From the NCBI RefSeq assembly GCF_014191255.1, contig NZ_JACHWH010000008.1, positions 135,001-199,000 of the forward strand: a stretch of 64,000 nucleotides of DNA, in the 5' to 3' direction. Below are positions 30,524 through 43,720 of the stretch, in pieces. The stretch comes from Amycolatopsis bartoniae. GTDB taxonomy: Bacteria; Actinomycetota; Actinomycetes; Mycobacteriales; Pseudonocardiaceae. The notes under the pieces were generated by a model. The model had not been told where the DNA came from and did no database searches. It worked only from the letters and a program-made list of their open reading frames with translations. The position numbers were made by a program, and so were the translations under genes. Position 1 is the first letter of the stretch. Each line of letters starts with the position of its first letter.

Positions 30524-32257
30524 GTGGATCGGCAGGCTCGGGCCGCGATCGCGGTGCGGAACCCTCGGTACAAGTGGATCGCGTTGTCCAACACGACGCT
30601 GGGCGTGCTGATCGCGACGATCAACTCCTCCATCCTGTTGATCGCGCTGCCCGACATCTTCCGCGGTGTCCGGATCGATCCGCTCGCGCCCGGCAACACG
30701 AGTCTCCTGCTGTGGCTGATCATGGGTTACCTCGTGGTGACCGCGGTGCTCGTGGTGAGCTTCGGCCGCCTCGGTGACATGTACGGCCGCGTCCGGATGT
30801 ACAACGCCGGGTTCGCCGTGTTCACGGTGTTTTCGATCCTGTTGTCCGTCACCTGGCTGCACGGGACGGCGGGTGCACTGTGGCTGATCGTCATGCGGAT
30901 CCTGCAGGGCGTCGGCGGCGCGCTGCTGATGGCGAACTCGACGGCGATCATCACCGACGCGTTCCCCGTCGAGCAGCGCGGGCTGGCGCTGGGGCTCAAC
31001 CAGGTCGCGGGTATCGCCGGGTCGTTCATCGGGCTGGTGCTGGGCGGGCTGCTGGGGCCGGTCGAGTGGCACACGGTGTTCCTGGTGTCGGTGCCGATCG
31101 GGGTGTTCGGCACGGTGTGGGCGTACTGGAAACTGCACGACACGGGCGTGCGCAACCCCGCGCGGCTCGACTGGTGGGGCAACCTCACGTTCGCGGTCGG
31201 GCTCATCGCGGTGCTCGTCGGGATCACCTACGGCATCCAGCCCTACGCCGGGCACACCATGGGCTGGACCAACCCGTTCGTGCTCGCGATGCTCATCGGC
31301 GGCGTGGTGGTGCTCGGCGTCTTCTGCGTGATCGAGACGAAGGTGCCGGACCCGATGTTCCGGCTGCGGCTGTTCCGGATCCGCGCGTTCACGGCGGGCA
31401 ACCTGGCGAGCCTGCTGGCGTCGCTCGGGCGCGGCGGGCTGCAGTTCATCCTGATCATCTGGCTGCAGGGGATCTGGCTGCCGCGCCACGGTTACAGCTT
31501 CGAGTCGACGCCACTGTGGGCGGGCATCTACATGCTGCCCGTGACGGTCGGGTTCCTCGTCGCCGGGCCGCTGTCGGGCTGGCTGTCCGACCGGTTCGGC
31601 GCGCGCCCGTTCGCGACGGGTGGCATGGCCATCGCGGCGGTGAGCTTCCTGTGGCTGTTGCTGTTGCCGGTGAACTTCGCGTACTGGCAGTTCGCGTTGG
31701 CACTGCTGCTCAACGGGCTGGGCATGGGCCTGTTCGCGTCACCCAACCGCGCCGGGATCATGAACGCTCTGCCGCCGCACCGGCGGGGCGTCGGCGCGGG
31801 GATCAGCACGACGTTCCAGAACTCGGCGATGGTTCTGTCGATCGGGATCTTCTTCAGCCTGATGATCACGGGTATCGCGCGGGACCTGCCGTCGACGCTG
31901 ACGAACGGCCTTGTGGCGCAAGGGGTTCCAGCGTCGAGCGCGGGTGCGCTGGGAGCGCTGCCACCGGTGGCGGTGCTGTTCGCGTCGCTGCTGGGCTACA
32001 ACCCGCTCGGGACACTGCTGGATCCGAGCGTGCTGCACCAGCTGCCGCAGTCGCGTGTGGACGTCCTGACCGGACGCGAGTTCTTCCCGGACCTGATCTC
32101 GGGCCCGTTCGCCACGGGGTTGACGGTGGCGTTCGGGTTCGCGATCGCGGCGTGCCTGGTGGCGGGCGTCGCGTCGTGGCTGCGGGGCGGGAAGTACGTG
32201 GCGGAGGAGCCGGTCAGGGACGGTAGCGGTACGGAAGCTCCGTCGGCTGCCCGGTAG
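30524..32257 (+). CDS. MFS exporter, DHA2 (14-helix) family
   Basis: A 577-aa multidrug-exporter-type protein with about 14 hydrophobic segments. It has the DHA2 hallmarks LGVLIATINSSILLIALPDI in helix 1, the loop GRLGDMYGRVRMY after helix 2, and the motif C-like GLNQVAGIAGSFIGLVLGGLLG. Substrates of this group include drugs and other amphiphiles. The start is GTG 30524 with AGGGGAAG upstream. An inverted repeat just ahead suggests repressor control. The 3' end overlaps the convergent Pro-rich gene by 44 bp. Confidence 0.9.
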   Translation: MDRQARAAIAVRNPRYKWIALSNTTLGVLIATINSSILLIALPDIFRGVRIDPLAPGNTSLLLWLIMGYLVVTAVLVVSFGRLGDMYGRVRMYNAGFAVFTVFSILLSVTWLHGTAGALWLIVMRILQGVGGALLMANSTAIITDAFPVEQRGLALGLNQVAGIAGSFIGLVLGGLLGPVEWHTVFLVSVPIGVFGTVWAYWKLHDTGVRNPARLDWWGNLTFAVGLIAVLVGITYGIQPYAGHTMGWTNPFVLAMLIGGVVVLGVFCVIETKVPDPMFRLRLFRIRAFTAGNLASLLASLGRGGLQFILIIWLQGIWLPRHGYSFESTPLWAGIYMLPVTVGFLVAGPLSGWLSDRFGARPFATGGMAIAAVSFLWLLLLPVNFAYWQFALALLLNGLGMGLFASPNRAGIMNALPPHRRGVGAGISTTFQNSAMVLSIGIFFSLMITGIARDLPSTLTNGLVAQGVPASSAGALGALPPVAVLFASLLGYNPLGTLLDPSVLHQLPQSRVDVLTGREFFPDLISGPFATGLTVAFGFAIAACLVAGVASWLRGGKYVAEEPVRDGSGTEAPSAAR

Positions 32258-34217
32258 GACCGAACCGGGGCTGCTCGCCGTCCTCCGGGTACTCGTCGAA
32301 CCACCCCCGCTCGGCGGCGGGAATCCCGCGGGGCGGGGTCTCCTCGCCGGACAGCGCGGACTCCACGCGGGACGGCCCCTCGGCGGCGGGCGTGGGGGGC
32401 GTTTCGGGCTGGAGGCGGCTGGTCCAGTCGGGCGCCGGAGGCGGAGTCCACGTGGCGACCCGCTTCGGCGCGGGCGCCAGCGGCGGCGCGGGGGGCTGGG
32501 GGGTGGCTTCCGGGGCCGGGGGGTGAGGTGCGGTCTCGGGAGCCGCGGCGGCCGGTGGTTGCGCGGCTTCCGGGGCCGAGGCGGCGGGCTGCGGCGCGGT
32601 CTCCGAAGCCGGGGGCTGGGGGGCGGTCTCCGGGCTCGGAACGGCCAGTCGCTGGAGTGGGGACTCCGACACCCAGGCGGCCGGTGGCTGGCGCGTGGCT
32701 TCCTGAGCCGCGGCGGCCGGTGCCTGGGGGGCGGCCTCCGGAGCCGGGGCAGCCGGAGGCTGGGGGGCAATGGTCTCCGGAGCCGGGGTGGCAGGGGCCT
32801 GGAATGCGGCTTCCGAAGCCGCGGCGGCCGGTGGCTGAGAAACGGTGACTTCCGGAGCGGGAGTGGTCGGGGGCTGAGGTGCGGTCTCCGGAGCCGAGGT
32901 GGCCGGAAGCTGAGGGGCACCCTCAGCAGCGGCGGGCGGGTGCGGCGTTTCCGGCGCAGGGGCTTCGGCCTCCCCGGCCGGGGGCTGGGTGAACGGTGCC
33001 TGCGCTGCGGCCTCCGCGGCAGGAGGCTGGGTGAACGGTGGCTGCGCTGCAGACTCGGCGGGGGGCTGGATGAACGGTGGCTGGGCTTCGGCCTCCCCCG
33101 CCGGAGGCTGGGTGACCGGTCGCTGCGCCGCGGCCTCGGCGGGGGGCTGGAGTGGGCCTTCCGAAGCCGGGGCGGCCGGAGGGTGGGGCTGCGCGGCCGG
33201 AGCTTCTAATGCCGGAGCCTGGGCGACCGGCTCTCCGGGAGCTTCCGGCGCCGGAGGCTCGGAGTGCGCGACCGGCGGCAGAGGCGAGGCATCCGAGGGC
33301 TGGAAGTGCCCCGTGGCCTCGGCGGCGGGCGGCGGAGAGTACGCGGGCGGGGCCGCCGGAGACTCAGCCGCCGAGGACTGGGCCGACGCAGCCTGGGCCG
33401 CCGGGGACTCAGCCTGCCGGGACTGGGCCGCCGGGGACTCAGCCGACGCAGCCTGGGCCGTCGGGACCTCAGCCACCGGAGACTGAGCGGCCGAGACCTC
33501 AGCCACCGGAGGCTGGGCGGCCGAGACCTCAGCCGACGCAGCCTGGGCCGCCGGGGACTCAGCCGCCGGAGGCTGGGCGGCCGGAGCCCGGAACTCCGCC
33601 GTCCCGGGAACCGCCTGCTCCGTCGCCCCCGGGTCGGGAGTCGCTGCGCTCTGGGGTGCAGGAGGTGGCGTGGTGCGCCACACCGGTGCGGGCGGGATGT
33701 TCATCGGCACCGCCCTCGCCCGCTGCTGGCCGGGGTCCGCCGGTTGCCTCCGGGCGGTGCTGCGCGGCGGGATCGGGTCCAGCACCGACACCAGGACGCG
33801 CGTGTGCTCCGGGTCCTCCACCTTCCGGCCGCTGCGCTCGCGATAGACCATGTCCCCGTCGGCGTCGATCTCCACCAGGTAGCCGGCCTCGGCGAGTTGC
33901 TCCTCGTCCAGGTCGACCAGGTTCTCGTACCTCGACGGCACCACCCGGTACACCGGCCACGACAGGTTCCCGTGCGCCTGGTGGAACTGCGCCAGCATCG
34001 CCGACATCTGCTGCTGCCACGGCAACGACATGCCCTCAGCCAGCGACCGCGGCAGCACCACGTAGTTCTCGTCCACCCCGGGCCAGCCGGGCGCCAGGTA
34101 GTCCGCCAGCGGGGTGCTCGACGCGGGACGCGCGGCCGAGCGCGGCGGCGGAACCGGCGCGCCGAACAGCTCGGCCGGGTCCTTCCCGGTCTTCCGCTTC
34201 CCGAATTTCTTAGCCAC
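32214..34217 (-). CDS. Large Pro/Ala-rich protein at the end of the VirB-like operon
   Basis: A 667-aa protein. Residues 1 to about 165 are ordered in character: KKFGKRKTGKDPAELFG, LADYLAPGWPGVDENYVVLPRSLAEGM, WQQQMSAMLAQFHQAHG and a VLVSVLDPIPP segment. Residues about 190-600 are a low-complexity region of Pro, Ala, Gln and Glu in PPAAxA-type repeats, encoded by imperfect 30-33-bp DNA repeats (33382-33414 recurs exactly at 33532-33564). The C-terminus ends WFDEYPEDGEQPRFGPTGQPTELPYRYRP-like, again conserved in look. GTG 34217 has GGAGAGG five bases upstream. The intracellular or wall-spanning role is unknown. Being last in the operon, it may be a scaffold or linker. Confidence 0.75.
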   Translation of the reverse strand: MAKKFGKRKTGKDPAELFGAPVPPPRSAARPASSTPLADYLAPGWPGVDENYVVLPRSLAEGMSLPWQQQMSAMLAQFHQAHGNLSWPVYRVVPSRYENLVDLDEEQLAEAGYLVEIDADGDMVYRERSGRKVEDPEHTRVLVSVLDPIPPRSTARRQPADPGQQRARAVPMNIPPAPVWRTTPPPAPQSAATPDPGATEQAVPGTAEFRAPAAQPPAAESPAAQAASAEVSAAQPPVAEVSAAQSPVAEVPTAQAASAESPAAQSRQAESPAAQAASAQSSAAESPAAPPAYSPPPAAEATGHFQPSDASPLPPVAHSEPPAPEAPGEPVAQAPALEAPAAQPHPPAAPASEGPLQPPAEAAAQRPVTQPPAGEAEAQPPFIQPPAESAAQPPFTQPPAAEAAAQAPFTQPPAGEAEAPAPETPHPPAAAEGAPQLPATSAPETAPQPPTTPAPEVTVSQPPAAAASEAAFQAPATPAPETIAPQPPAAPAPEAAPQAPAAAAQEATRQPPAAWVSESPLQRLAVPSPETAPQPPASETAPQPAASAPEAAQPPAAAAPETAPHPPAPEATPQPPAPPLAPAPKRVATWTPPPAPDWTSRLQPETPPTPAAEGPSRVESALSGEETPPRGIPAAERGWFDEYPEDGEQPRFGPTGQPTELPYRYRP

Positions 34218-34234
34218 GAGAACCTCTCCGCCTC

Positions 34235-35230
34235 TCACACACCCGGCCGCACGGCCTGCGGCACGAGCTCGTTCTCGTCGAACGACACCGAACGGACGTG
34301 CACCGGCACGCCGGTCTGCTGGGCCTCCACTATCTTCCCACCGCCCAGGTACATCGCCACATGGTGAATGGTGTTCGGGTTAGACGGGTCGTACGCCCAG
34401 AACAGCAGGTCACCGGGCTGTGCACTGCGCACCGGCAGCATCGCGCCGTCGTGGTACTGGTCCCTCGACACCCGGTCGAGCGTGATGCCCGCGGCCTCGT
34501 ACGCCCGCAGCATCAGGCCCGAGCAGTCGTACGAATCCGGGCCCGTCGCGCCCCACACGTACGGCTTGCCCTGCTCCCCCAGCGCGAACTCGATCGCCGA
34601 GGCCGCCGCCCCGTTCGCCGGCAGCGCCAGCCCCACGCTCTGCCCGCAGCCCACCGCGTCACTGACCTGGCCGACGTTCTGCACCAGGTTCGCCGCCATC
34701 GGCTCCCAGCGGTGGTAGCGGTCGGGGAACGCCGAGCGCTCCACGTCCTGCGCCGAGTCGCCCGGCCGCTGCCCGTCCCAGTTCGGCACCGACAGCAGCA
34801 CGTCGTAGAACTTGTTGATCTCGTACGTGACGTCCTGCAGCTGACCGACGGTGCCCCAGCCCATCGACGGGCGCATCTGGAAGATGCCCAGCGAGTCGCG
34901 GTCACCGAACGCGAGGTTGCGCAGGCCGGACTCGGTCATGCCCGCCTGGATCGCGATCTGCCACGCCCGCGGCGACAGCCCGCGCTGCTTGCCGATCGCG
35001 ATGATCTGCGCGACGATCCCCCGCTGCGTGGCGTCGAGCCGGTCGGCCTGCCCCTGCGCCGTCTGCGCGTCACCCGCGTCAGTGGGGCCGATCGCCGCGT
35101 CGCAGCTGAGGTTCTGCACCCGCGCCTGCGCGGCCTGCTGGTCGGTGACCACCTTCGCGACGACACCCGTGGTGAACACCGCCGCGAACAACGCGGCGAC
35201 CACCACGCCGATGATCACCCCGAGCCGCAT
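34235..35230 (-). CDS. VirB1-like bifunctional cell-wall hydrolase (transglycosylase + NlpC/P60)
   Basis: A 331-aa membrane-anchored protein. An N-terminal helix (VIIGVVVAALFAAVFTTGVV) is followed by a lysozyme-like domain with catalytic Glu100 (MTESGLRN) and the SLGIFQMRPSMGWG motif. It ends in an NlpC/P60 peptidase domain with Cys236 (YDCSGLMLRAY) and His290 (IHHVAMYLG). This two-domain layout matches the CwlT/TcpG-type hydrolases that open peptidoglycan for Gram-positive type IV secretion systems. It starts two bases after the VirB8-like gene and ends 17 bases before the Pro-rich gene. Confidence 0.88.
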   Translation of the reverse strand: MRLGVIIGVVVAALFAAVFTTGVVAKVVTDQQAAQARVQNLSCDAAIGPTDAGDAQTAQGQADRLDATQRGIVAQIIAIGKQRGLSPRAWQIAIQAGMTESGLRNLAFGDRDSLGIFQMRPSMGWGTVGQLQDVTYEINKFYDVLLSVPNWDGQRPGDSAQDVERSAFPDRYHRWEPMAANLVQNVGQVSDAVGCGQSVGLALPANGAAASAIEFALGEQGKPYVWGATGPDSYDCSGLMLRAYEAAGITLDRVSRDQYHDGAMLPVRSAQPGDLLFWAYDPSNPNTIHHVAMYLGGGKIVEAQQTGVPVHVRSVSFDENELVPQAVRPGV

Positions 35231-35232
35231 CG

Positions 35233-35829
35233 TCAGCTCGCCTGGTCGTAGCCGGTCACGCGCCAGCCCGCGGCGGTCTGCGCGACGGTGATGCTCAGCT
35301 GCGGCCCGTCGGTGGGCACGAGCACGAGCACGGAACTCGTGTAGGACTCGGTGACCCGGGGATCACCGGTCAGCCTGGTCGCGGGGATGTTCGCCGGGTC
35401 CACTGTGGACATCTGTGGCAGGTACTCGTCGGTGGTGTACGGCCGCAGCCCGTCGAGCCACTGCGCGTTGGTCATGCCCGCCGGGTGCGTGACCCACGCC
35501 TGCGCCCACAGCTTCGCGACGTTGAGCGCCTCCGGGTTCGGCGCCGCCGACGTCGGCTGCAGCAGTGGCGCGGTGAGCCGGGAGGACATCGGCGTCGACG
35601 TGGTGCCCGCGGGCACCTTTGCCGCCGACGACGCGGGATCGGGCACGCGCGCGGGCGTGACCTTGCTGCCCGCGGGCGACCCGAGCAGCTGCGGCACGGC
35701 GATCCCGATCGCGATGATCAGGATCAGCACGGCCACCGCGGTGCCCGCGAGGTGCCGCGGCGAGCGCAGCGGAAAGCCCCACAGGCGCCGGTAGACCGCG
35801 GCGCGCCCACGATTCGTCCTGATCGGCAT
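35233..35829 (-). CDS. VirB8/TcpC-like membrane protein
   Basis: A 198-aa protein with a basic N-terminus, one membrane helix (AVAVLILIIAIGIAVPQLLG, residues about 31-50), a Pro/Ser/Thr linker and an extracytoplasmic domain with an NTF2-like pattern (AKLWAQAWVTHPAGMTNAQWLDGLRPYT; TVAQTAAGWRVTGYD). This topology and fold pattern match VirB8/TcpC scaffolding proteins of conjugation systems, although identity would be low. It lies between the VirB6-like and VirB1-like genes, the position expected for this component. A GAGGTGAG site precedes ATG 35829. Confidence 0.72.
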   Translation of the reverse strand: MPIRTNRGRAAVYRRLWGFPLRSPRHLAGTAVAVLILIIAIGIAVPQLLGSPAGSKVTPARVPDPASSAAKVPAGTTSTPMSSRLTAPLLQPTSAAPNPEALNVAKLWAQAWVTHPAGMTNAQWLDGLRPYTTDEYLPQMSTVDPANIPATRLTGDPRVTESYTSSVLVLVPTDGPQLSITVAQTAAGWRVTGYDQAS

Positions 35830-35837
35830 CGCTCACC

Positions 35838-37868
35838 TCACCGCACGACCTGGTCGGTGTCGCGCACTTCGAGCCCGCGCGACGGGCGGTACAGCACGTG
35901 CACCGGCTTGCCGCCCACCAGCTCCGGCTCCACGCGGCGCGGCCGCGGCACGGGCACCCTGGCGGCCTGCGGCGCCGGTTGCAGCCGCGACGGCACCACC
36001 ACGGAGTCGGCCTGTTCGGTGTCGCCATCGAACACCGGCGACGTGTCGACCCGCCTGCTCGGCTGCGCGACCCAGCCCGCGTCCGCGCGGCGGGTGCTGC
36101 CCGGCGGGGCGGAGTACACGTAGTCGTCCGGGCTGCCGCCGGCAGGCGCGTAGCCCGGGTACGCCCCGGCACCACCGCCGCCCGCGGGCAACGCCTGGCG
36201 CGGCCGGTTCCCCGGCAGCGCACCCGACCAAGCCGCGGCGGGGCGGGAAGCCATCGAGCCGGAGCCGTCGAGCCGCTGTGAGCTGGCGAAGATCGTCGCC
36301 TCCGGGCGGTAACGGCCACCGCCCGCCGTCGCACCGATCGGCCCGCGTGTTTCGAGGTCGCTGTCGTCGGAGTCCCGCACGTTCTGCCAGAACTCGTCCT
36401 GCGGCGTCGGGCCCTGCTTGCGGCGGAAGCGCGAGAAGAGACCCGACGGCGCCGGCACACCCGAACCGACCATGCCGACCGACATCTCGACCATCTGCCA
36501 CAGCCGCCGCACCGGCCGCCCCACGAGGAACAGCAGCACGGTGACCAGGCCCGCCATCGCCATCTGCGTGAGCATCGACAACGCGCTGCCCGCCGCGAAG
36601 ATCGCCTGCAGCAGCAGCGCGTGCACCCCGGCGAGCACCGCGAGCACGATGAGGTTGAACCCGACCCCGCCCAGCACCTTCGCCACGCGGCGGAGAATGT
36701 CGTGGTGCACCAGCGCGACCAGGCCGATGAGCGGCGCCGTGAGCGCGAACAGCCGGATGAGCACCTGCGCCAGGAGCACCGAAGCCTTGGCCAGCAGCTG
36801 GAACAGCGCGTACACGATGCTCTGCAGCAACGCCAGGAACCCCGCGCCGGTGCGGCTGCCGCCCTCGCCGGTGAAGTACGGCGTGGCGGTGCCCAGCTGC
36901 CCGGCGATGTTCTTGTACGACGCCTTCTTCGCGTCCACGACGGCCTGGTTCGCGTCGTCGCCGTTGCGCACCTGGTCCCACGTGAACGCCTGCGCGTCCA
37001 GCAGCGGCCTGCCGAACTGCGTCGCCTGCGAAGCGTCGGGCGCGCCGAACTCCCCGCGCAGCCAGTTGTTGTAGACCACCTGCGTGTGCAGCTCGGTGGG
37101 CAGGATCTCGCGGACCACACGGTCACCCGAGTCGTCGACGAACCCGGCCTGGATGTTGGTGGTGGTCTGGACGATCGCCTTGTCGATCGGGTCGAAGTAC
37201 CGCAGCATCGCGAGCGACGACGCGGCGAGCCACACCGCGCCCAGCCCGTACAGCGCGCGTTTGCTGACCGCGGCCAGGTCGCCGCGCCAGATGTTGCGGA
37301 ACATCAGGATCGCCAGCAGCAGCGCGGCGATGCCGAACAGCTGCGCGTAGATGTTGTTGTAGACCTTCTCGGCCCCGCTCTTGACCGCGTCGTAGATCGG
37401 GTTGAGCAGGCCGCCTTCCATCACCGTGTAGTGCAGCGAGTTGGTGGCGCCGACGATGTTCTTGCCGATGTTGAACAGCTCGTTGCCCGCCCACGTGTCG
37501 ATGGTCGAGTTCGGGCTGGAGAGCCCGGACAGCGGGCCGCAGTCGGTCTGGAAGACGTACCAGACCATGCCGGCGTAGCTGTAGTCCAGGTACGCGCTGC
37601 CGTTCTCGCCGTGCGTCGCGGGCGGGTCGATGGCGCCGACCATGCCCGCGCCGGGGCGTTCGGGCGTGGGCGCCTCACCGCAGGCCGCCGCCGAGGCGGC
37701 CGGGGCCGTGGCCACCGCCTGCAGGCCGAGCACCAGCGCGACCATGGCCACCGTCGCCCAGCGGCCGGGTCTTTTGCCGCGGAACCCTCCCCTGCGGAGG
37801 AATCCCTTGAACGCGTGCCACCCCCAAGCGCAGGCCAGCACGAATCCCAGCGTCAGGACGGTCGTCAT
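35838..37868 (-). CDS. VirB6/TrbL-like polytopic membrane protein
   Basis: A 676-aa protein. It begins with a hydrophobic segment and a signal-like stretch (VALVLGLQAVATAPAASAAAC). A large extracytoplasmic loop follows, then about six further helices between residues 165 and 420 (AALLLAILMFRNIWR; ALYGLGAVWLAASSLAML; LIVLAVLAGVHALLLQ). The C-terminal 200 residues are a disordered Gly/Pro/Arg-rich cytoplasmic tail. The layout is that of TrbL/VirB6 or TcpH channel components. It overlaps the VirB4-like gene by four bases (ATGA). Confidence 0.78.
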   Translation of the reverse strand: MTTVLTLGFVLACAWGWHAFKGFLRRGGFRGKRPGRWATVAMVALVLGLQAVATAPAASAAACGEAPTPERPGAGMVGAIDPPATHGENGSAYLDYSYAGMVWYVFQTDCGPLSGLSSPNSTIDTWAGNELFNIGKNIVGATNSLHYTVMEGGLLNPIYDAVKSGAEKVYNNIYAQLFGIAALLLAILMFRNIWRGDLAAVSKRALYGLGAVWLAASSLAMLRYFDPIDKAIVQTTTNIQAGFVDDSGDRVVREILPTELHTQVVYNNWLRGEFGAPDASQATQFGRPLLDAQAFTWDQVRNGDDANQAVVDAKKASYKNIAGQLGTATPYFTGEGGSRTGAGFLALLQSIVYALFQLLAKASVLLAQVLIRLFALTAPLIGLVALVHHDILRRVAKVLGGVGFNLIVLAVLAGVHALLLQAIFAAGSALSMLTQMAMAGLVTVLLFLVGRPVRRLWQMVEMSVGMVGSGVPAPSGLFSRFRRKQGPTPQDEFWQNVRDSDDSDLETRGPIGATAGGGRYRPEATIFASSQRLDGSGSMASRPAAAWSGALPGNRPRQALPAGGGGAGAYPGYAPAGGSPDDYVYSAPPGSTRRADAGWVAQPSRRVDTSPVFDGDTEQADSVVVPSRLQPAPQAARVPVPRPRRVEPELVGGKPVHVLYRPSRGLEVRDTDQVVR

Positions 37869-40759
37869 GCGGCGTCCCGGCCATGACCGCCCCGTTTGCC
37901 CGCCGTCGCGTGCTCGGCGCCGCCGGGCACGTCCTCGGCGAGGATCTGCTCCTCGGTGAGCCCGACCTCGCGCTCCGCCGCGAGCTCCAGGTCCTCCTCC
38001 AGCTCGTCGTCCGGAGGCGGCACGGGCACGTGCGGCTTCTCCTCCTGCTCGGCCTCGCGCGCCGCGCGGTTGTCGGCGGGCAGCGCGTCCTTGGAACCCG
38101 GCGTGGTGTCCATGACCGCACGCAGGTGCTCCAGGTGCGGCCCGGAGAAGTCGACGCGGATGCGCTCCACGCCACCGGCACCGTCACCGAAGATGAACTG
38201 CCGCGGCTCACGGTCGCGCTCGGCGTCGCGGTGCGCGCCGGGGCGGCGGCCCAGCGCCGCGACGACCTGCTCGTACCCGACGCCGACCGGCACCTTCAGC
38301 AGGCGCAACGCGTCGGCCTGCGCCTCGTCGTCGTCGAGGCGGCCGACGAACACCGAGTCCAGCAACGCCACGAAACCCTGGATCTTCAGGAAGTCCGCGG
38401 GGATCTGCGACGACAGCAGCACCCGGACGTTCCACTTCCGCGAGTCACGCGCGAACCGGTTCATCAGCACGCGCCCCGTCGGCACCTCGGACAGGAAGAA
38501 CGCCTCGTCGATCCAGACGCCCTTGCGCAGGTCCTTCGGCTTCTCGTACACCGAACGCTGCGTGAGCCACGCGGCGAGGTTCAGCATCTCCACGCCGAGC
38601 GCCTCGGCGTCGGTCCAGTGCTCGCGGCCCACGCCGTCCTTGGGCAGGGTCAGGCCCGCCATGGTCAGCACCGTCAGCCGGTCGTCGCGGGTCTCGGAGT
38701 ACGGGTCGGCGTCGTCCTCCGGGATGAGCAGCGACATGCGCTCGCGCATCTCGTCGAGGAAGTCCGCGACGACGACGGCGTGCTCGTGGTGCTCGCTGGA
38801 GTCGCGCCGCAGCGCGTCGATCACCTGCCCGGGGTCGGCGTCGTAGCGGCCGCCGACCGTGCGGACCGCGCGCAGCAGCACGATCCGGCTCTGCGGCATC
38901 CGCGCCACCTCGTACGGCAGGATCCCGGTCAGCACGTCGAGGACCAACCGCCGTCGGGTCGCGCCGGCCAGCGCCCGTTCTCGCCGCCACGCCCGCTCGG
39001 GGTCGTCCTCGTCCAGGAAGTGCTCCAGCAGCGGCTCCGCCACCACCCGGTAGGGGTTCAGGATGCCGGGTTGTGCATTGAGCAAGTTGATGGGCCGCGC
39101 GTACGGCCGCAGCTCCGGCAGGTCGCACAACCTCGACAGCGGGCCCGACGGGTCCAGCAGCGTCCAGTGCGCGCCCGCGCGGATCGTCTTGTAGACGATG
39201 CCGCCACCGAGGAACGACTTGCCGCCACCGAGGCCCGCGACCATCGCGGTCAGACCAGAGCCGTCGCGGATCTCCTGCGCCATCCACGGGTCCCACGCCA
39301 CCGGGCGCCGGGTCGCCGTGACCGTCTCGCCGAGCAGGATGCCCCGCCGGTCGCCGACCTCCGCGGTCGCCGTCGGCACCGCCGCCGCGGCCCACACGAC
39401 CGAACCCCGGCGCATGTACGCCGAGGACGCGAGCGGCTCGCCCGGGATGAACTCCCGCGCCATCGCGTACTGCGCCTCGGGGTGCTCGATGGCGACCTTC
39501 GGCTTGTACAGGTCGAGCAGCTGCTGGGCCAGGCGCAGCGCCTCGCGCTCGGTCTGCCCCGACACCGCCAGCCGCCACCACGAGCGCACCCGCGTGGCCA
39601 GCGCGGTGAAGCCCGACGTCATCTCGTCGTCGATCTCCAGCACGCGGGACGCCTGGCGCGCGAGCGACTGCGGTGGCTCCAGCTCGTGCTCGTCGGTGTA
39701 GTGCTTGACCTGCGAGCGCACCTTGTTCATCTGGCGCTGCAGCTCACCGGCCACCTCCTCGGGGCGGCGCACGTAGATCCGGGCGGACCACTCCACGGCG
39801 GCCGGCAGCCGGTCGGCGTGCTGCACCCACGGGTCGTCGACCTCGGGGATCTGCAGGCCGTGCATCTGCCCCACGGTGAGCACCGCGACGTGCCGCTTCA
39901 GCCCGGCGTTCGACCCGGTGCGCCCGCGAACGGTCAGCGTCGGCGCGTACGGCTCGGCGTGGAAGTCCGCGGCGTCGGTGAAGCTCGCGAGGTCCTCCGG
40001 CTCCCACTCGGTACCCGGCACGGCGGGCAGGTTCCGCGGCGCGGGCAGCCCCAGCGAGCACGAGCGGTGCATCAGCCAGGACATCTCCTCCGCGTGCACC
40101 GGCCGCCCCTCCAGTCCGGAGGAGCCGATGACCTGGTCGAGGTGCTCGACCTCGGAGTCCAGCGCGGTCAGCTCGGCGTCCACGGCCTCGGGCAGGATCT
40201 TGCGCAACAGCGGCGCGGCGCTCTCGACCGCGCGGTCCACCATCCGCCGGGTCTGCACCTGGACGCCGATGTAGACCTCCTTCTCGGCCATCGAACGGCC
40301 CATGAGCTGCTGCTGCTCGCCGATCAGGTAGTCGTCGAACGACAGCGTGCCCGGCACGTCCTGCGGGCGGCCGACGGCGTTGTGCACGTGCGCCTCGGCC
40401 CACATCCGGATCGGGTACGGGCGCGTGGTGACCCGCAGGTGCAGCCAGCGGCCCTGCAGCTCCGCGTACTGCCCGGCGATCGCCGCGATGAGGTCCCGGC
40501 GCTGCGAGTCGGACCGGAACGACCAGCGCTGCGGCGCCAGCCGGTACCAGGCGTAGACCTCGTGCCCGGTGCGCAGCAGGTGCCCGTCGATGCTGCGGGC
40601 CGCGATGGACGGGGTGTAGCTGGGAATCGCCTGCTCACCCGGCAGTCGCCGGCTTCCCTGGTTCTTCTTCGCGCCCGCCGGGGCGCCACGGCCGCGCTGC
40701 GGCTGCCACTCGGTGGCACCGCCCGCGTCGCGCTCCCGGTCCTTCCGGCGACCGAACAA
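37865..40759 (-). CDS. VirB4-like secretion ATPase
   Basis: A 964-aa ATPase, the largest and best recognised component of this operon. The N-terminal half carries the VirB4/TcpF substrate-binding type domain. The C-terminal half has a Walker A of the form A-x4-GKS (GLGGGKSF, Lys514) and a Walker B KGVWIDEAFFL (Asp751-Glu752), followed by VRVLLSSQIPADF, as in VirB4/TraC proteins. There are no membrane helices. The start codon is TTG 40759, strongly supported by AGGAGG six bases upstream, which itself overlaps the end of the preceding gene. It should power assembly or transport by the membrane complex encoded downstream. Confidence 0.9.
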   Translation of the reverse strand: MFGRRKDRERDAGGATEWQPQRGRGAPAGAKKNQGSRRLPGEQAIPSYTPSIAARSIDGHLLRTGHEVYAWYRLAPQRWSFRSDSQRRDLIAAIAGQYAELQGRWLHLRVTTRPYPIRMWAEAHVHNAVGRPQDVPGTLSFDDYLIGEQQQLMGRSMAEKEVYIGVQVQTRRMVDRAVESAAPLLRKILPEAVDAELTALDSEVEHLDQVIGSSGLEGRPVHAEEMSWLMHRSCSLGLPAPRNLPAVPGTEWEPEDLASFTDAADFHAEPYAPTLTVRGRTGSNAGLKRHVAVLTVGQMHGLQIPEVDDPWVQHADRLPAAVEWSARIYVRRPEEVAGELQRQMNKVRSQVKHYTDEHELEPPQSLARQASRVLEIDDEMTSGFTALATRVRSWWRLAVSGQTEREALRLAQQLLDLYKPKVAIEHPEAQYAMAREFIPGEPLASSAYMRRGSVVWAAAAVPTATAEVGDRRGILLGETVTATRRPVAWDPWMAQEIRDGSGLTAMVAGLGGGKSFLGGGIVYKTIRAGAHWTLLDPSGPLSRLCDLPELRPYARPINLLNAQPGILNPYRVVAEPLLEHFLDEDDPERAWRRERALAGATRRRLVLDVLTGILPYEVARMPQSRIVLLRAVRTVGGRYDADPGQVIDALRRDSSEHHEHAVVVADFLDEMRERMSLLIPEDDADPYSETRDDRLTVLTMAGLTLPKDGVGREHWTDAEALGVEMLNLAAWLTQRSVYEKPKDLRKGVWIDEAFFLSEVPTGRVLMNRFARDSRKWNVRVLLSSQIPADFLKIQGFVALLDSVFVGRLDDDEAQADALRLLKVPVGVGYEQVVAALGRRPGAHRDAERDREPRQFIFGDGAGGVERIRVDFSGPHLEHLRAVMDTTPGSKDALPADNRAAREAEQEEKPHVPVPPPDDELEEDLELAAEREVGLTEEQILAEDVPGGAEHATAGKRGGHGRDAA

Positions 40760-40762
40760 CAG

Positions 40763-41188
40763 CTACCTCCTCGCCGGAGCCGCGCCACGGCGTGCTCGGG
40801 ACCTGTCAGGGCGTTTGTTCCTTGGCAACGGGCGCTGCGAGCGGACGCGCAGCTTGCCGGCGGTCACCGCACCGCCCTCCCCTCGCGGTTTCTCGCGCGG
40901 CGTGTGCAGCTCTCGCAGCCACATCGTGAACACCGCGCCGAGCGGGCGCTCGTGACTGATCTTTCTCGTGATCAGTCTGGTGATCAAGATCGTTGCCACG
41001 AACGCCCACGCCGTGGAGAAGAACCCGAACCCGACGCCGAGCTGGCGTTCGACCGTCAGGACCACCAGGAAGACGGCGATGCCGACACCCCACGCGACGT
41101 ACCTCGCGCGCCAGGGGAACGTGGCCTTCGGGGGGCCGAGCCACACCGCGTCGACCCGGTAGACCTCGTCATCGGTTCGAATCCGCAC
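40763..41188 (-). CDS. PrgI/VirB3-like membrane protein
   Basis: A 141-aa protein with two adjacent membrane helices (about residues 29-45, YVAWGVGIAVFLVVLTV, and 53-72, FFSTAWAFVATILITRLI) and a basic C-terminal tail. Small two-helix proteins directly ahead of a VirB4 ATPase are typically PrgI/TcpE/VirB3 equivalents. The start is GTG 41188; the ribosome-binding site is weak. It ends three bases before the VirB4 start. Confidence 0.72.
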   Translation of the reverse strand: MRIRTDDEVYRVDAVWLGPPKATFPWRARYVAWGVGIAVFLVVLTVERQLGVGFGFFSTAWAFVATILITRLITRKISHERPLGAVFTMWLRELHTPREKPRGEGGAVTAGKLRVRSQRPLPRNKRPDRSRARRGAAPARR

Positions 41189-41199
41189 GGGGTCTCGTC

Positions 41200-41466
41200 T
41201 CAGCCGGTGAACAGGCCGGCGATCCACTCGCCGACGTTCACGCCCAGCCCGCTCACGGCGAGGCCGACGATCGCGAGCGCGATCACCACACCTGCCAGGC
41301 GGCGCATGACGCCGGCGTTGTCGCCCTTGCCGCCGCCCAGCCAGAGCAGCAGCAACGCGACGGCCAGCAATACGAGCGGGATAACGTTGTCGAGCATCCA
41401 CTGCTGGACGCCTCGGGTCTTGATCTCGCCCTCAGCGAGGTGCTGCACAAGCGTCATCATGGTCAT
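41200..41466 (-). CDS. Small two-helix protein, VirB2/TcpD-like, first gene of the operon
   Basis: An 88-aa protein with an amphipathic start (MTMMTLVQHLAEGEIKTRG) and two hydrophobic helices (VIPLVLLAVALLLLWLGGG and LAGVVIALAIVGLAVSGLG) separated by a short basic loop. The topology matches VirB2/TrbC pilin-type or TcpD-type subunits. The proof of processing or polymerisation is absent. ATG 41466 has GGGAG seven bases upstream and is preferred over ATG 41523. It is the promoter-proximal gene of the seven-gene operon; a 61-bp element begins 95 bp upstream. Confidence 0.7.
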   Translation of the reverse strand: MTMMTLVQHLAEGEIKTRGVQQWMLDNVIPLVLLAVALLLLWLGGGKGDNAGVMRRLAGVVIALAIVGLAVSGLGVNVGEWIAGLFTG

Positions 41467-41561
41467 CGCGTACTCCCGGGTGCGAGGAGTGTGGTCGGGT
41501 GGGTCTCGCCGGGCGGGGCCCACGGGGTGTGGAGCTTGTCCGGTCTGGTCTACATCATGAT

Positions 41562-41622
41562 GGCGTGACTACCGGTAACGGTCAAAGTGCTCTCCGTCGC
41601 CGGACAGTCGAACCTCACCAGG
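41562..41622 (-). promoter_or_regulatory. Shared 61-bp upstream element, copy A
   Basis: Matches 42260-42320 at 47 of 61 positions with no gaps. It lies 95 bp upstream of the first VirB-like gene. Conserved blocks include GGCGTGACTACC and TGCTCTC. GTGAC at 41565 and GTAAC at 41575 are 10 bp apart, one helical turn. Differences do not favour any codon position, so it looks regulatory and not coding. Confidence 0.55.
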
Positions 41623-42053
41623 CACAGTACGGCCACTCTCCCTGAACTCGTCGCCCTCCATCATCGTTGCAAGGCCGCCCAGGATTAACCCCGTCCACCC
41701 GTATTTCGTAGTTTGCGTACGCACTCGCTCGAAATGAGCGTTTCTGCTCACTCTGCGTCCGTAGCACGCGCCGCAGGGACAGTGTGACAGACCCGATCGG
41801 TGGCAGTCCCGCTACCCGGCGGTGACGACTTCTCCGCCCTAGTCGATCATGGTCCGTTGCCCACCGGCATGACAGCTCCCCGACTTCATCACTGTCCGTG
41901 CAGGTCGGGAGGAAGATTTGGCTCGACCGCCGGAGCGCCGGCGTCGAGAAGGGGACAGGCTGCCCTGTTCGGAGCTAGCCCGCTCCGGGGCGGACAGCCT
42001 ATCCTTGACGGGCCCGTTCGAGCACCGGTGGCCGCCGGCGCTCAGGGGCAGGG
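41623..42053. other. Intergenic stretch without a supported gene
   Basis: About 430 bp with only short, unsupported frames. A hairpin with AGGCTG (41957-41962) and CAGCCT (41995-42000) enclosing GGAGC/GCTCC could terminate the small gene transcribed leftwards from 42185. A minus-strand frame ending at 41569 would overlap copy A of the shared element and has no ribosome-binding site. Confidence 0.5.
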
Positions 42054-42185
42054 TCAACAGTTGTGCACGCCGCGCCAGACGATGATCGCGGCCTTCGCCA
42101 GTGCGATGAGCAACTGGGAGACGGGGCCGGTGTACCGCAGCCAACTCGGTTGCCGGCCCTGCTTCTTCTTGTGGGTCTTGGACAT
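42054..42185 (-). CDS. 43-aa basic membrane peptide
   Basis: A very short gene missed by length filters. ATG 42185 is preceded by an excellent AGGAGG at six bases. The product has a strongly basic start (MSKTHKKKQGRQPSWLRY) and one hydrophobic helix (VSQLLIALAKAAIIVW), ending RGVHNC. It could be a membrane-associated peptide. I recognise no family. Copy B of the 61-bp element lies 75 bp upstream, in the same relative position as copy A before the VirB-like operon, so the two units may be co-regulated. Confidence 0.6.
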   Translation of the reverse strand: MSKTHKKKQGRQPSWLRYTGPVSQLLIALAKAAIIVWRGVHNC

Positions 42186-43323: not shown

Positions 43324-43720
43324 CGGACGAGTTGGCCTGTAAGCCGGATCCTGTTCCGCGCGCGAAGGCGCGGCGGCGGCCATCCATCTAGACCTGCCGT
43401 TGCCGGCAGGTTCGAGCGGCCTACCCGCAGGCTCGGGCGGGCAGCCCTCGAACGCCTGCGCAGGCGCCTGTCGCCAGGCGCCCTCTTGGCCTTGCTCCGG
43501 GTGGGGTTTACCGAGCCACCCCGGTCACCCGGGGTGCTGGTGGTCTCTTACACCACCGTTTCACCCTTACCCCGGCTCGGAAGCCGGGGCGGTCTGTTTT
43601 CTGTGGCACTGTCCCGCGGGTCGCCCCGGGTTGCCGTTAGCAACCACCCTGCCCTGTGGAGTCCGGACTTTCCTCGAAGGACCCGAAGGCCCCTCGCGAC
43701 CGCCCGGCCAACTCGTCCGC
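43324..43720 (-). ncRNA. rnpB: RNase P RNA
   Basis: The catalytic RNA that trims tRNA 5' leaders, about 397 nt. The minus strand contains the universal 5' block GAGGAAAGTCCGGACTCC (43675-43658), the GAAACGGTGGTGTAAGAGAC region and GGTAAACCCC seen in bacterial type A RNAs. The ends pair over 15 bp to make helix P1: GGCCAACTCGTCCGC is the 3' strand (43338-43324) and its complement is at 43720-43706. The 3' part contains GATCCGGCTTACAGG. Ends are set from P1. Confidence 0.95.

Follow-up and report, generated by a model that had tools for sequence, protein, structure and literature searches.

What can a VirB-like operon, in which an initial annotation had noticed neither relaxase nor coupling protein, do on the chromosome of a member of the Pseudonocardiaceae? 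The window (the whole stretch of DNA analysed, 64 kb long) carries seven genes on the minus strand at positions 32214-41466, in the order VirB2-, VirB3-, VirB4-, VirB6-, VirB8- and VirB1-like, followed by a seventh component named PA. All seven genes were found where the initial annotation had placed them, and they are tightly packed: neighbouring genes are at most 17 bases apart or overlap, and the overlap between the VirB6-like gene and virB4 is 4 bases. The features are as follows:

41200-41466 (minus strand): VirB2/TcpD-like membrane protein, 88 aa, with two hydrophobic segments
40763-41188 (minus strand): membrane protein of 141 aa, VirB3/PrgI-like, starting at GTG
37865-40759 (minus strand): VirB4/TcpF-type ATPase, 964 aa, TTG start, Walker A GLGGGKS, Walker B WIDEAF
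35838-37868 (minus strand): polytopic membrane protein of 676 aa, VirB6-like, whose C-terminal part is long and hydrophilic
35233-35829 (minus strand): VirB8-like protein, 198 aa, N-tail MPIRTNRGRAAVYRR, one hydrophobic segment and then about 145 residues
34235-35230 (minus strand): VirB1-like wall hydrolase, 331 aa, with a hydrophobic anchor, a muramidase-like domain and an NlpC/P60 peptidase
32214-34217 (minus strand): PA, seventh component, 667 aa, with a conserved domain at residues ~30-150 and a Pro/Ala-rich tail
33762-34217 (minus strand): coding DNA of the conserved N-terminal PA domain (the 152 aa that were aligned and modelled)
41748-41758 (minus strand): AC-N5-GTGA upstream element ACGCAGAGTGA, a BldD box minus its first T
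41467-41866 (minus strand): intergenic DNA upstream of the operon, conserved, with several footprints that include TTTGACC and CATGATG
43324-43715 (minus strand): rnpB, the usual chromosomal neighbour, outside the machine and given for context only

A further reading frame of 43 aa (42054-42185, minus strand), basic and partly hydrophobic, lies between rnpB and the operon; it had no match in 80 other loci (tblastn, 1e-3).

Conservation within the family: A search with the ATPase returned a VirB4 relative from 150 of 150 sampled genomes of the family (Pseudonocardiaceae, judging by the named loci), representing 46 of 46 genera. Among the matches listed, VirB4 was 63-65% identical in 11 genomes from two divergent genera and at least 80% identical in nearly all others; two genomes among these matches carried one in-frame TGA inside VirB4. 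Counts of named loci refer to the best 80 of 294 loci found, the window's own locus (L001) being additional. All seven genes were present in the same order in 76 of the 80 named loci; the four exceptions were two loci at contig ends (L055, L059) and two with a run of N inside the operon (L043, L061). For 68 of the 80 named loci the fetched flank included rnpB upstream of the operon, and in all 68 it had the direction of the operon. The median identity of the ATPase was 85%, compared with 62-78% for four chromosomal neighbours (each found in at least 17 loci). dN/dS values of the operon were well below 1 (0.06-0.39 against L002; 0.09-0.33 against L005), with 0.06 for the VirB4-like ATPase and 0.39 for PA against L002. 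In the four loci examined from the divergent genera the operon lies elsewhere; dnaK adjoins it in three of four and a Dcd-like frame in three of four (labels assigned from sequence). Judged on sequence comparison, the operon is a chromosomal core locus, probably inherited vertically, and no decayed element.

Identity of the channel proteins: The VirB4-like ATPase matched Pfam AAA_10 (1.5e-18), and its nearest NCBIfam model was TcpF (6.5e-19, far below the family cut-off). Walker A (GLG[GA]GKS) and Walker B (W[IL]DEAF) were each kept in 80 of the 80 named loci, in agreement with the intact motifs recorded initially for this protein. The VirB6-like protein gave a weak match to CD3337_EF1877 (3.4e-7), below the NCBIfam cut-off. 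The VirB1-like protein combines an NlpC/P60 match (1.2e-22) with a muramidase-like N-terminus (PDB 8b2e, 1.1e-13); its DCS motif was present in 76 of 76 loci, MTES in 74 of 76 and HHVA in 52 of 76. VirB2-like and VirB3-like genes were each found in 79 of the 80 named loci (L001 left out). No Pfam family matched the VirB2-like protein, none above cut-off matched the VirB3-like protein, and neither Pfam nor NCBIfam gave a match to the VirB8-like protein, the N-tail of which is nearly invariant across loci. Three plasmid relatives of the VirB3-like protein occupy the same gene position (4e-27 to 6e-21). Of the VirB names given at the outset, those of VirB4 and VirB1 were confirmed by domain content and for VirB6 the match stays below cut-off; VirB2, VirB3 and VirB8 are names by position, assigned from gene order, size, hydropathy and relatives at the same place in plasmid cassettes, with no family match above cut-off.

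Mobility functions: The whole genome of the window's organism (7.76 Mb, 99.98% complete) was searched. It contained no match to PF12696 (TraG-D_C, VirD4/TraG-type coupling proteins) or to the two relaxase families searched, PF08751 (TrwC) and PF03432; what the initial annotation had said of relaxase and TcpA/VirD4 in the window holds genome-wide for these three families. No coupling ATPase was detected in the operon or among ten flanking proteins scanned with Pfam, and no mobility gene, integrase included, was among these ten; the flanks are ordinary chromosome, as first described, with rnpB at 43324-43715. The 64-kb window contains no tRNA gene. Eleven FtsK_SpoIIIE matches were obtained in the genome, among them proteins read as FtsK, EccC-like and TraB-like of an integrated element. 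When FtsK-like proteins of the genome were compared with two plasmid coupling ATPases, the best identity was 26-27% over ~200-225 residues. Two FtsK-domain frames, taken as EccC (G000:C1:905877-907685 and G000:C14:105477-107285), had identical scores on two contigs and represent either a duplicated locus or an assembly repeat.

These searches bear on the reading of the operon as a decayed or complete integrative conjugative element, which is largely refuted and in our judgement highly improbable. The recognisable parts do derive from conjugation systems, and a second copy of the locus in one genome (G542; L118, 806-10835, on a 64-kb contig, 73% identical) does adjoin a TrwB-like coupling protein, but all 150 sampled genomes of the family have the operon, its chromosomal place is steady and its reading frames are open; the window contains no tRNA gene, the ten neighbours scanned include no mobility gene, and the genome gave neither a TrwC nor a PF03432 relaxase match. 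The result by which the initial annotation would have recognised such an element (a relaxase, a coupling protein and att sites around the region in related genomes) was not seen at the core locus as far as the Pfam scan of the window's neighbours shows, and its description of a machine made from type IV parts fits a chromosomal core operon. The missing relaxase alone says little, because 58 of 93 plasmid relatives were also typed non-mobilizable. The core locus is distinguished by a place that stays fixed, by having no coupling ATPase and by the PA gene that has been added to it.

Plasmid relatives: The closest relatives of the operon are cassettes on actinobacterial plasmids, found in Streptomyces, Pseudonocardia, Rhodococcus, Nonomuraea and Gordonia. 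Three cassettes tested with profiles (Streptomyces sp. 891-h, Pseudonocardia DSM 110487 p1 and Rhodococcus pdjl-6-4) have the same VirB2-3-4-6-8-1-like order and, unlike the core locus, gave no match to PA; VirB4 was 33-43% identical to that of the core among the 30 of 93 records listed. A further difference from the core locus is an FtsK/SpoIIIE-domain ATPase encoded within ~5 kb in five of seven plasmid cassettes examined. No FtsK/SpoIIIE protein was annotated in the stretch examined of the FR-008 plasmid or within 15 kb on Pseudonocardia p1. In a tree of VirB4, one side of a branch (100/100) consisted of 16 core rows together with a single mobile copy. The mobile copy of G542, which had no PA match, was nested among core rows, so the core system may have re-mobilised once.

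The pairing of plasmid cassettes with FtsK-like ATPases means that this type of channel can be tied to DNA transfer. A VirB4-like protein, CedB, also belongs to the archaeal Ced system. A relaxase-free movement of DNA between hyphae, or a DNA import like that by Ced, which takes up chromosomal DNA (PMC11868833), is an alternative for the core operon, albeit an unlikely one: the core locus has no FtsK-like partner of the kind found beside the same cassette on plasmids, the FtsK-like proteins of the genome that were compared are not close to the plasmid ones, and deletion of the Streptomyces operon cmd (see below) is reported not to have significantly altered transfer of an SLP2-derived plasmid (PMC2782261).

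PA, the seventh protein: In 76 of the 80 named loci the gene for PA comes immediately after the VirB1-like gene, and the proposal that the Pro-rich protein is a new component of the machine gains a conserved seventh gene. It was complete in 70 of these 76 loci (157 to 1041 aa) and cut by a contig end in six. In an alignment of 70 sequences the conserved part corresponded to residues 30-150, with 40 invariant columns. The tail of PA in the window has 515 residues, of which 25% are Pro and 27% Ala; the Pro/Ala richness by which the 667-aa protein was first characterised is real, but belongs to the variable tail and not to the conserved part. Tail length ranged from almost none to ~900 residues, and the entire protein measured 157 aa in ten Lentzea loci; what is essential in PA is therefore not the tail. 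PA was not found in the two loci examined from one divergent genus (L100, L119), so it is not indispensable; it was present in the two loci of the other. No segment of PA exceeded the hydropathy threshold, no Pfam or NCBIfam family matched it, and the predicted structure of the 152-aa domain matched no known fold. Our guess is that the PA domain is an adaptor that replaces the coupling protein, because of its gene position, the lack of a clear membrane segment and its restriction, as tested, to the coupling-free core locus.

Proposed function: The channel genes sit on the chromosome in every sampled family member without DNA-handling parts, suggesting that the host recruited the channel for some task in its own life cycle. 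We regard it as about evenly balanced whether the operon encodes a channel that descends from a TcpF-type (Gram-positive) conjugation system, has been domesticated, is inherited vertically and is used in the mycelial life cycle or differentiation. At the level of sequence, it is established that the operon is chromosomal in all sampled genomes, that it preserves the motifs of the ATPase and most of those of the hydrolase, that the genome lacks the relaxase and VirD4/TraG-type families searched and that the plasmid relatives with six of the genes are, where tested, without PA. The VirB2-, VirB3-, VirB6- and VirB8-like subunits would form a membrane channel, the bifunctional hydrolase would open the peptidoglycan and VirB4 would power assembly or transport; the PA domain, probably cytosolic, would stand in for the missing coupling protein in docking. 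With less certainty, the machine may act in hyphal differentiation, septation or sporulation and not in plasmid transfer, like the non-orthologous cmd; a role in differentiation appears the likeliest. In favour of the life-cycle link are the BldD-box core upstream of the operon and the reported cmd phenotypes (both below). Coupling-type ATPases encoded elsewhere (FtsK, EccC and TraB-like, as read) could serve in trans, which is counted against this explanation, as are the imperfect BldD element, the divergent genus in which PA was not found and the positional naming of VirB2, VirB3 and VirB8.

A machine for protein secretion or contact-dependent delivery that works independently of a coupling protein, with PA or the VirB6 tail recruiting the secreted proteins, would have precedents in Ptl and Brucella VirB, which lack a coupling protein and are named as exceptions in this respect (PMC12102498). 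The channel-like set with its wall hydrolase, for which a coupling protein was not found, is compatible with such a machine; as the scan of ten flanking proteins recognised neither a toxin nor an effector, there is no candidate substrate and the operon is present in every sampled family genome, we consider it rather improbable.

Upstream control region: Several conserved footprints were present in the ~400 bases upstream of the operon (17 sequences aligned). Blocks conserved over genera within 41467-41866 (minus strand) include GATGATGG, CTTTGACC and CATGATG, among others. The element AC-N5-GTGA was found in 78 of 79 upstream regions, whereas among pieces taken from these loci it occurred in 61 of 207 when GC-matched and in 307 of 3160 when unmatched, the loci being related and their counts not independent; it was on the sense strand in 77 regions, at a steady distance (median position -273). 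The consensus of the BldD box is given as TNAC-N5-GTNA (PMC4151990). The full box was present in 22 of 79 upstream regions, against 12 of 207 GC-matched and 48 of 3160 unmatched pieces, and its first T is missing at most operon loci. The element of the window is the only ACNCAGAGTGA in its 64 kb. L100 and L119, from the divergent genus in which PA was not found, had no match to the upstream element. Upstream of cmd, the full BldD box was found in three of three Streptomyces genomes, and two of these upstream regions also contain ACACAGAGTGA. BldD-box-like sites before the operon and before cmd are taken as a lead towards possible developmental control, and as a lead only.

Comparison with Streptomyces cmd: The cmd operon (cmdABCDEF, SCO4126-4131) was located in three Streptomyces genomes by using a pattern derived from a published cmdB primer. 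The gene order is a 105-aa membrane protein, CmdE, CmdD, CmdC, CmdB and CmdA. CmdD is SCO6881-like (1.6e-7), CmdC belongs to the SCO6880 family (8e-53) and CmdB (475 aa) is a VirB4-like ATPase (AAA_10, 5.6e-13) nearest to CD1110-type VirB4; we infer that CmdC and CmdB are a split VirB3/VirB4. CmdA (L095:7748-9358) gave a TraG-D_C match below cut-off (6.6e-4) and no P-loop family match, and is perhaps a worn-down coupling protein. Deletions of cmd are reported to cause defective sporulation and segregation (PMC2782261), and cmdBCDEF mutants have been linked to antibiotic overproduction (PMC6585502); the word cmd is absent from the main text of a T4SS review (PMC12857230).

The initial annotation had considered the present operon a possible counterpart of cmd. 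Both are chromosomal T4SS-like operons with similar BldD-box-like sites upstream, and among 42 profile pairs the best was CmdE with the VirB8-like protein (34% probability; shallow alignments, with one to three cmd sequences), a weak match. Direct orthology with cmdABCDEF is nevertheless scarcely credible: the window's VirB4 profile had no match in the three cmd-bearing genomes, even at E 10; with CmdC of the SCO6880 family, CmdB nearest to CD1110-type VirB4 and a weak TraG-D_C match in CmdA, cmd is of another type IV subtype, whereas the window's ATPase is nearest to TcpF; and no reading frame in L095, L096 and L098 matched the VirB1-like (wall hydrolase) or PA profiles. As the VirB4 profile is unmatched and the subtype differs, cmd is a parallel and not an orthologue. 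The counterpart idea thus fails for descent and stands for the chromosomal type IV-like operon; a parallel in role is possible, given the poor sporulation reported for cmd mutants and the BldD-box-like sites upstream of both loci.

Other families: In family f3, inferred to be Micromonosporaceae, a VirB4 relative was found in 57 of 61 genomes and 41 of 44 genera. The six channel genes were in the same order in all six chromosomal loci examined, and folP adjoins five of the six (label from sequence). VirB4 was ~40% identical to that of the core, and the seventh gene was a different one in five of the six loci. This gene follows the six channel genes in L097, L139, L140, L142 and L143 as a frame of 201-361 aa; the other four proteins are 61-75% identical to that of L097, and two that were scanned had no Pfam match. 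Five f3 upstream regions contained no full BldD box. Core and f3 may have been domesticated separately or in a single event (p-AU 0.093). More distant chromosomal relatives occur in family f90 (L145-L150), where the VirB4-like gene is preceded by a long frame (890-1607 aa); this frame begins with a TcpE-like domain (tested in L149), and a TcpC match was obtained in L150. In wider samples, matches were found in 7 of 396 genomes of the phylum and 39 of 296 genomes of the class (coarse sensitivity).

A more general proposal is that mycelial actinobacteria have more than once made such channels into core organelles of differentiation. In Pseudonocardiaceae this would be controlled by BldD, with parallels in f3, f90 and cmd; the usual coupling protein would be absent, its place being taken by an adaptor specific to the lineage (PA, or the seventh protein of f3). 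We put it forward tentatively, as somewhat doubtful.

Significance: No paper on conserved type IV secretion in Pseudonocardiaceae was found in a search of open-licence literature, and a conserved envelope machine of a large family of antibiotic producers, present in every sampled genome of the family, seems to be without a described function. The operon may illustrate how the channel of a mobile element turns into a core cell part, and PA is a candidate for what replaced the coupling protein. It would also set the puzzling Streptomyces cmd result in a wider frame with a testable common theme.

Comparison with known systems: The operon resembles Gram-positive conjugation systems of the TcpF/Tn916 kind in its VirB4, which is nearest to TcpF, in its VirB6-like protein, which has weak similarity to CD3337/EF1877, and in its bifunctional wall hydrolase; it differs in being chromosomal, in having no relaxase or coupling protein of the families searched and in scores far below the family cut-offs. 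The chromosomal T4SS described for Patescibacteria (PMC12102498) belongs to another phylum and to an epibiont lifestyle, but, like the operon, is reported to be relaxase-poor, broadly conserved and of monoderm origin.
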